64,000 nucleotides of DNA from Phycisphaerales bacterium. GTDB lineage: Bacteria; Planctomycetota; Phycisphaerae; Tepidisphaerales; Tepidisphaeraceae. The position numbers and the translations under genes are program-made. Position 1 is the stretch's first letter. Every line of letters begins with the position of its first letter. Under the pieces are notes generated by a model. It was not told the origin of the DNA. It saw only the letters and a list, made by a program, of their open reading frames with translations, and did no database searches. The stretch spans positions 62,001-126,000 of the forward strand of contig JADYZN010000061.1 in NCBI GenBank assembly GCA_020853095.1, in the 5' to 3' direction. Below are positions 54,581 to 56,099 of this stretch, in pieces.

Positions 54581-55369
54581 TCATTTAACTAGCTGCGTCT
54601 CCATATTCCTTGCCGTCGCTATATTCCTCGCGCGCCGCCGAAAAGACAGTTTGGGAAACAACGCGCCGACGCGGTTCCGATATGCCGCGTATGGCTCACC
54701 GAAGTGCTCGATGAGGTTTCGTTCCTCCAGCGGGATCGCCACAAGGATGTACACCGTCATCAGCCCCGCGAAGAGCAGGTGCGTAAGCGTCATCGTCGGC
54801 GTCGCCCAGAACGCGGTCATCCATCCCACATAAAGCGGGTGGCGGATGTAGCGATACGCGAGCGGCGCGCGCAGCGGGAGGTGCGTGTACGACCTCCCGC
54901 GCAGGTACAGCCAGACCTGCCGGGTGCCAAAGAGATCAAAATGGTTGATCAGCAGGGACACCGCGGGCACGCCCACCCACCCGATGGCAAAAAGCAAATA
55001 CAGCGACGCTCGTGCTGAGGGATGCGTTACATCCCACACCACCCCGCCGATCGGACGCCACTGCCACATCAGCAGCATCATGAGTAGGCAGGACAGCAGG
55101 ACGTAGGTGGCTCGCTCGATCGGCGCGGGCACAAAACGCGTCCACCATCGCTTAAACGTCGGGCGGGCCATCACGGAGTGCTGCACCGCGAAGATTGCGA
55201 TCAGCATCGCGTCGATCGCCACCGCCCACGTGAGCGAACCCGTCCGCGAGCCGTCGATCGTCGGGATCAGCCCGAAACCGAAGTTCCCGACGAACGCCGC
55301 CATCCATGCATAGACGGCCAGAAACAAAGCGTGACATCCAACGCCATACAGGAAGAAGAGTCGTTTCAT
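54581..55369 (-). CDS. mddA: Methanethiol S-methyltransferase-like membrane protein
   Basis: 262 residues with about six membrane helices. Strong agreement with MddA: VQHSVMARPTFKRWWTRFVP, IERATYVLLS, MWQWRPIGGVVWDV, LINHFDLFGTRQVWLYLRG and YRYIRHPLYVGWMTAFWATP. MddA methylates methanethiol with SAM to dimethyl sulfide and acts on hydrogen-sulfide methylated products. It is divergent from a TetR regulator, with tandem repeats between them. Substrate is inferred by similarity only. Confidence 0.88.
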   Translation of the reverse strand: MKRLFFLYGVGCHALFLAVYAWMAAFVGNFGFGLIPTIDGSRTGSLTWAVAIDAMLIAIFAVQHSVMARPTFKRWWTRFVPAPIERATYVLLSCLLMMLLMWQWRPIGGVVWDVTHPSARASLYLLFAIGWVGVPAVSLLINHFDLFGTRQVWLYLRGRSYTHLPLRAPLAYRYIRHPLYVGWMTAFWATPTMTLTHLLFAGLMTVYILVAIPLEERNLIEHFGEPYAAYRNRVGALFPKLSFRRRARNIATARNMETQLVK

Positions 55370-55425
55370 GCAATAGCTCCTTGTTTGGGTGCAGTAACTA
55401 TTGGCCGCGTCGTCCCATCGGACAA

Positions 55426-55464
55426 GTTGACTTGATGTACACCGCCGGTTGACTTCTGGTACAC
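55426..55464. promoter_or_regulatory. Tandem operator-like repeats between mddA and tetR
   Basis: GTTGACTTGATGTACAC (55426-55442) and GTTGACTTCTGGTACAC (55448-55464) match at 14 of 17 positions, with 22 bases centre to centre, i.e. on the same helix face. They fall just upstream of the tetR ATG (55491) and within the region that must hold the mddA promoter. Likely binding sites for the adjacent TetR protein. Confidence 0.68.
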
Positions 55465-55490
55465 TGCCAAGTCAGCAACGGACCATTGCG

Positions 55491-56099
55491 ATGCCCACTC
55501 AGACGCGACAGCAACTCGTCTACGCCGCCAGGCAGCGGTTCTACCGCGACGGCTTCCGTAACGTCGGCATCGATGCCATCCTCGACGATGTCGGCATCAG
55601 CAAGACCGCGTTTTACAAGCATTTCGCCTGCAAGGACGACCTCATGGTCGCGGTGCTCGACGATGTGGATCAATTTCTCAAGACAAGCTTTCGTCAGATG
55701 ATCAAGGACCGGGGCGGGCGCACCGCCGACGGACAGATTCGCGCGATGCTCGATGTCGTCCAGCAGGTCATCGCTCAGGATGGATTCCACGGCTGCATCT
55801 TCGTCAACGCCGCCATGGAGTTCCCTCTGGCCCACGACCCCGCTCACCAGGCGGCGGCGCGGCACAAACGCGCGATCGAAGAGCTTGTCTTTGAACTCGC
55901 CGAACGCGCCGGCGTCGCCGATCCCGACTCGATGGCACAGGAACTCTGCCTCATCCTCGAAGGCGCCTACGTCACGTGCAGCGTCACCGGCGACCCGATG
56001 AGCTTCGCCATCGCCCGGCGCCTGGCCGACCAGCTCATCGCCCGTCATCTTCCGCAACCATCGGGTCAGAAAAATGGGCAGAAAAATAGGTCACGTTGA
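55491..56099 (+). CDS. TetR/AcrR-family regulator
   Basis: 202 residues from ATG 55491. N-terminal HTH: RQQLVYAARQRFYRDGFRNVG, IDAILDDVGISKTAFYKHFACKDDLM, the TetR helix-turn-helix. The ligand-binding core shows FHGCIFVNAAMEFPLAHDP. It should repress the divergent mddA-like gene and itself. In this setting the inducer may be methanethiol or a related sulfur compound; that is inference. An ATG at 55449 (14 codons upstream) lacks a site and overlaps the repeats. Confidence 0.92.
   Translation: MPTQTRQQLVYAARQRFYRDGFRNVGIDAILDDVGISKTAFYKHFACKDDLMVAVLDDVDQFLKTSFRQMIKDRGGRTADGQIRAMLDVVQQVIAQDGFHGCIFVNAAMEFPLAHDPAHQAAARHKRAIEELVFELAERAGVADPDSMAQELCLILEGAYVTCSVTGDPMSFAIARRLADQLIARHLPQPSGQKNGQKNRSR

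Follow-up and report, generated by a model that had tools for sequence, protein, structure and literature searches.

We describe a two-gene locus in a 64,000-nucleotide stretch of a Phycisphaerales bacterium contig (hereafter the window), in which a gene matching the methanethiol S-methyltransferase MddA lies divergent to a gene for a TetR-family regulator, with two copies of a 17-bp quasi-palindrome between them. Comparison with related loci across the Planctomycetota supports this TetR as a dedicated regulator of mddA and the repeats as its putative operator, and the twin sites very probably act as the switch for mddA. We consider it highly probable that the two genes form a dedicated detoxification module, with a repressor on tandem sites, a sulfur inducer and dimethyl sulfide as its output.

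Both gene calls at the locus are correct (Table 1), so that the earlier note, which had placed an MddA-like gene divergent from a TetR gene, holds in its coordinates and gains a match to the MddA equivalog NF045656. The TetR most likely starts at the listed ATG, which separates the start codon from copy 2 by 26 bp; an upstream TTG at 55449 was rejected because it lies inside operator copy 2 and because similarity to the orthologs begins near the ATG. A convergent Amidohydro_2 gene neighbors mddA, and a methylpurine-DNA glycosylase gene lies past tetR.

Table 1. Features of the mddA-tetR locus (positions in the window)
Feature	Position	Strand	Description
mddA	54581..55369	-	Membrane S-methyltransferase (methanethiol S-methyltransferase, MddA), 262 aa; putative target gene; NF045656
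Possible mddA -10, AATAGT	55397..55402	-	At 23 bp from copy 1, where 22 is usual
Putative operator copy 1	55426..55442	+	Quasi-palindrome GTTGAC-N5-GTACAC; GTTGACTT-GAT-GTACAC
Putative operator copy 2	55448..55464	+	GTTGACTT-CTG-GTACAC; 22 bp from copy 1
TetR-family regulator gene	55491..56099	+	202 aa from ATG 55491; PF00440, PF16925, ortholog alignment A1 (n=14), AlphaFold model

The 17-mer GTTGACTTnnnGTACAC occurs twice between mddA and tetR, at exactly the positions and with the 22-bp period (start to start) that had been noted before, and each copy is a quasi-palindrome of the form GTnnAC-N5-GTnnAC. Exact matches in the 3.6-Mb genome are confined to these two, and five further places match with two mismatches. 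The reversed pattern, allowed up to two mismatches in the same genome, gives 24 matches (8 + 16), which marks loose single matches as background but not the exact tandem. A relaxed tandem pattern (GTnnACY-N4-GTnnAC twice, 5-bp gap) fits one place genome-wide, the window site, and none with a 6-bp gap; being strict, this pattern overlooks known sites in genomes G303 and G372. A single-site shuffle test allowing up to three mismatches, which found 2 sites against a mean of 2.13 expected, is superseded by the exact, genome-wide and tandem tests. Elsewhere, a run of GTTGACCTCGG repeats (L085, G337:C1:3077-3115) fits the tandem pattern through simple repetition.

The arrangement recurs wherever close relatives of the TetR were found, with one exception. 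TetR peptides, used as queries against species genomes, brought up 16 loci, namely 13 orthologs (59 to 70% identity) and 3 weak matches; mddA is divergent to the TetR in all 13 orthologs, found with TetR peptides only, and none of the 3 weak matches has an mddA match. Together with the window and four further loci (L037, L058, L059 and L096), these orthologs make up 18 loci, with L101 as a nineteenth. Across the 19 loci whose TetR is more than 50% identical, 18 combine a divergent mddA with this tandem pair at a spacing of 22 or 23 bp. The remaining locus, L101, is a partial TetR of a Lacipirellula genome (54.7% identity, 128 residues aligned) with neither mddA nor operator in its flank. The operator-like character proposed for the repeats in the earlier note is thereby supported by comparison. 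Within a set of 15 loci, the copies are 22 bp apart in 7 and 23 bp apart in 8; the inner gap of the 17-mer never varies, whereas 5 or 6 bp separate the copies, which makes the 17-mer the unit. With the window's own pattern as the query, a pair with at most two mismatches per copy appeared in none of 30,000 dinucleotide shuffles of the 15 intergenic regions, and a pair with at most three in 1 of 30,000. The inner half-sites, on the right of copy 1 and on the left of copy 2, are the best kept, and palindromy is perfect in some copies, for example GTTGACTTGAAGTCAAC in L047. In these tallies, L050, whose TetR frame breaks after 161 aa, is left out of A1 and the TetR tree and kept in the operator counts; L096, whose mddA match spans part of the gene, enters the 18 loci and the promoter tally but neither of the two trees nor the shuffle test; and repeat fetches of one place (L001, L002, L034, L054-L057, L086-L089, L091, L093-L095 and L097) are counted once. 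The genome of Lacipirellula limnantheis (G396; L096, L097, L101) holds two tetR-mddA loci with tandem operators and the third, partial TetR without mddA. One ortholog record labeled Vicinamibacteraceae (Acidobacteriota; L040:12-3572) may carry a wrong label, as it shares 84% identity with a planctomycete record (L043) across 3.6 kb.

The mddA genes that lack this TetR serve as a control. MddA scores above the cut-off in 32 of 294 Planctomycetota genomes, and we examined 30 of the 34 matches with flanks of up to 1.5 kb. Among the 26 loci whose flank lacks a family TetR, not one has a pair better than every one of 200 shuffles (the lowest being L014, with 5 of 200 shuffles as good, and L035, with 20 of 200); the palindrome consensus used here, as for the distant TetRs and for loci such as L096 and L101, was drawn by eye from loci of the TetR family, so that this test is not independent. 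The other four are the window, a locus with TetR and operator (L037), one with tetR, osmC and mddA but no shuffle-beating pair directly before mddA (L024), and one with an operator and no adjacent TetR (L019). On the MddA side, TetR-linked or operator-bearing members cluster, with 5 changes compared to a shuffled mean of 15.4 (none of 500 shuffles as low). In genome G198, the tandem operator is kept at an mddA with no adjacent tetR; the neighbor of this mddA is MscL-like, judged by eye from the translation, and the only family TetR found in the genome (E <= 1e-10) is on another contig, beside osmC.

The position of the sites relative to promoter elements suggests how they could work. At 22 nt from copy 1 in the direction of mddA, the hexamer matches TATAAT at a mean of 4.11 of 6 positions across the 18 loci, compared to 1.45 averaged over distances 8 to 39 and 2.22 at the second-best distance. 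Matches of at least 4 occur at 22 nt in 15 of the 18 loci, with GATAAT the commonest hexamer (7 of 18). The exceptions are L042, L047 and the window itself, where the hexamer at this distance, CAATAG, is a poor -10 element and AATAGT lies one base further. No -35 box of mddA is recognizable, but a -10-like hexamer at 22 nt means that the -35 region would abut copy 1. On the other side, TACACT, a possible -10 element of tetR, ends copy 1 in 14 of 18 loci, and in the window it is formed by copy 2 and the next base instead. We regard steric repression of both genes as the likeliest mode of action.

Beyond these close relatives, a profile of the 14 TetR orthologs (E <= 1e-30) finds 52 places, spread over 43 of 392 Planctomycetota genomes; we examined 30 of these places (6 close and 24 distant, L060-L083). 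Among the 24 distant loci, 9 face osmC-like genes, 5 Rv2258c-like methyltransferase genes, and single ones mddA (L063), a homocysteine S-methyltransferase-like gene (L076) and an AhpD-like gene (L078); ten of the facing proteins (4 OsmC, 4 methyltransferases, and those of L076 and L078) were scanned with Pfam and NCBIfam, and the rest were named by tblastn. In the tandem test, run with the by-eye consensus, no shuffle out of 300 was as good as the real sequence at 15 of the 24 distant loci (at L072, just one copy is good at this spacing), and L076 came close (1 of 300 shuffles as good). The test failed at L068 and at L077-L083, which speaks against a universal rule for the family. L082 and L083, among the most distant TetRs, carry by eye another inverted repeat, ACAGACAGGTCTGTA, upstream of tetR and not a tandem pair; upstream of two tetR/osmC pairs (L098:1280-1340 and L099:1368-1428), three 17-mers stand in a row at 22-bp steps.

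The TetR tree, with 40 rows, groups its 16 close orthologs in a single mddA-facing clade (100/98), with L060 near it, and 7 of 8 purely osmC-facing TetRs fall into another clade (100/99) together with L063, L068 and L078. Coupling of mddA with the osmC branch takes four forms, of which the G198 arrangement above is one; the others are these: (i) at L063, a TetR of the osmC branch and its operator face mddA; (ii) at L024 and L068, tetR is followed by osmC and mddA in one direction; and (iii) in Aeoliella straminimaris (L049:135-3585), a tetR-osmC module adjoins an mddA-tetR module, each with a tandem operator-like pair, that of the former having 4 mismatches in each copy and being judged without a shuffle test. 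At the level of sequence, then, these comparisons establish the module, its sites, their geometry and their coupling to the TetR family. At L023, an Rv2258c-like gene follows mddA without TetR or operator. Size and domain content do not support the Rv2258c-like proteins as methyltransferases of the MddM type: the four scanned have 365 to 404 aa and an Rv2258c-like winged helix-turn-helix, whereas MddM1 and MddM2 are smaller (210 and 204 aa) and of UbiG/UbiE type (PMC12904073).

These arrangements of mddA and osmC, together with DsrE-like genes beside some mddA genes, suggest that the signal is a thiol, sulfide or an oxidant, and since the distant TetRs mostly face genes other than mddA, the inducer may be an oxidant or electrophile. 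Features of the regulator bear on this choice. The window TetR combines a TetR_N helix-turn-helix (PF00440, 41.5 bits, cut-off 24; helix GISKTAFYKHF) with a TetR_C_13 domain (PF16925, 40.3 bits, cut-off 27), and its AlphaFold model has a pLDDT of 84. By sequence and by fold, its nearest solved chain is the Streptomyces TetR-family regulator SCO4454 (3g7r), which is nevertheless only 27% identical in the structural alignment. Cys102 and Cys153 are invariant in A1; in the wider alignment, Cys102 is kept in 27 of 27 TetRs, Cys153 in just 6 of 27. Cys102, in a less certain region of the model (pLDDT 72 and 65, residues 91-110), aligns ungapped by BLASTP with Cys106 of Escherichia coli NemR, a TetR-family electrophile/HOCl sensor of similar fold (4yze_A, TM 0.77); Cys106 is a cysteine of the NemR chlorine response, and NemR represses detoxification genes, a role like the one proposed here (PMC7464077). 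NemR differs, however, in its target genes, in its low identity to the window TetR (22% over 106 residues) and in Lys175, where the window has Ser164 and the 26 remaining rows have H, Q, L, M or V; it was for lack of this lysine that we rejected NemR's Cys-Lys switch for the window TetR. Two other TetR regulators were compared: AcuR, which governs acrylate/DMSP genes and shares the link of the TetR family to organosulfur metabolism, has another target enzyme, and the window TetR matches it weakly, at 46.7 bits, far under the AcuR cut-off of 247; and CssR, a stress regulator, was set aside because its motif, of 25 bp, is a different one and faces the operon of an ABC transporter (PMC8176726).

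The strongest alternative, which we hold as a serious though minority possibility, is that the repressor senses oxidants or electrophiles through Cys102 and that mddA, like OsmC, is one of several stress outputs of the family. The conservation of Cys102 and its alignment with NemR Cys106 favor it, as do the 9 of 24 distant members facing osmC-like genes and the induction of mddM1 and mddM2 by H2O2 (PMC12904073). The loss of Lys175 means, however, that NemR's own switch is not conserved, Cys102 may be structural, and Cys153, for all its invariance in A1, is seldom kept in the wider family.

A second alternative concerns the enzyme. The window protein matches the NF045656 MeththiolMtaseMddA equivalog over residues 2-239 at 288.9 bits, compared to a curated cut-off of 270, which is a modest margin, and it shows weak similarity to PEMT and isoprenylcysteine methyltransferases. 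It is probably the enzyme that turns the toxic gas methanethiol into dimethyl sulfide; what sets it apart from MddA as such is its dedicated divergent TetR and conserved tandem operator. The modest margin and the weak likeness to isoprenylcysteine and phospholipid methyltransferases would also suit an MddA relative acting on another thiol, a selenide or a lipid-like molecule, but we find this unlikely given the full-length equivalog match and a DsrE-like gene, of a sulfur-handling type, that follows mddA in the same direction in 4 of the 13 ortholog loci (L038, L039, L040 and L043, about 1617-2111); the two of these four proteins that were run against Pfam score just above the DrsE_2 cut-off.

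TetR genes are commonly autoregulated, and the possible tetR -10 element on copy 1 would fit sites that serve tetR only, with mddA a bystander under its own promoter, yet this is very improbable in view of the tandem site kept at the G198 mddA without an adjacent tetR, the constant distance of the mddA-directed -10-like element in 15 of 18 loci, and the osmC-branch TetR that came to face mddA at L063.

The operator/repressor reading is accordingly the one we find well supported by sequence, and the earlier proposal of a TetR-controlled mddA is borne out in part, the TetR now appearing dedicated by comparison (18 of 19 loci) and the enzyme assigned by its equivalog score. For the steps of the switch, we infer TetR binding, repression, autoregulation, MddA activity and the identity of the inducer. 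Two TetR dimers would sit on the two quasi-palindromes, about two helical turns apart, and block the mddA promoter, whose -35 region the sites would abut, as well as the promoter of the regulator itself. The repressor would be freed by an inducer, for which methanethiol, sulfide or a reactive sulfur species formed from them is the likeliest candidate, and the MddA then expressed would methylate H2S or methanethiol to volatile dimethyl sulfide. In favor of this model, mddA transcription is reported to be enhanced by H2S and/or methanethiol (PMC12904073). Against it count the window's place among the 3 of 18 loci with a poor -10 element at 22 bp and the wider family link to OsmC, with which an oxidant or thiol-reactive inducer would also agree. 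A further point against it is that TetR proteins can also activate.

As far as titles and abstract openings show, this putative local TetR repressor has an operator and regulon not found described: in those of the open-licence literature on mddA, mddA regulation, Planctomycetota and TetR, there is neither a named regulator of mddA nor the TetR family described here, and a search of PMC5607357 for regulation, induction and transcription brought up nothing relevant. The MddA route makes dimethyl sulfide from methanethiol, not from DMSP. For it, the module offers a defined putative repressor and operator in two named species, Lacipirellula limnantheis and Aeoliella straminimaris. More speculatively, a Planctomycetota-wide TetR family with tandem 17-bp operators might sense methanethiol, sulfide or reactive sulfur through its invariant cysteine and control a defense regulon against sulfur gases and peroxide, in which MddA, OsmC-like proteins and Rv2258c-like methyltransferases are combined in ways that differ among genomes. 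It would then be, within the literature covered above, the first regulator named for the MddA route to dimethyl sulfide. Should a sulfur gas prove to be the inducer, the family would link the making of dimethyl sulfide with OsmC-type stress defense in a widespread environmental phylum.
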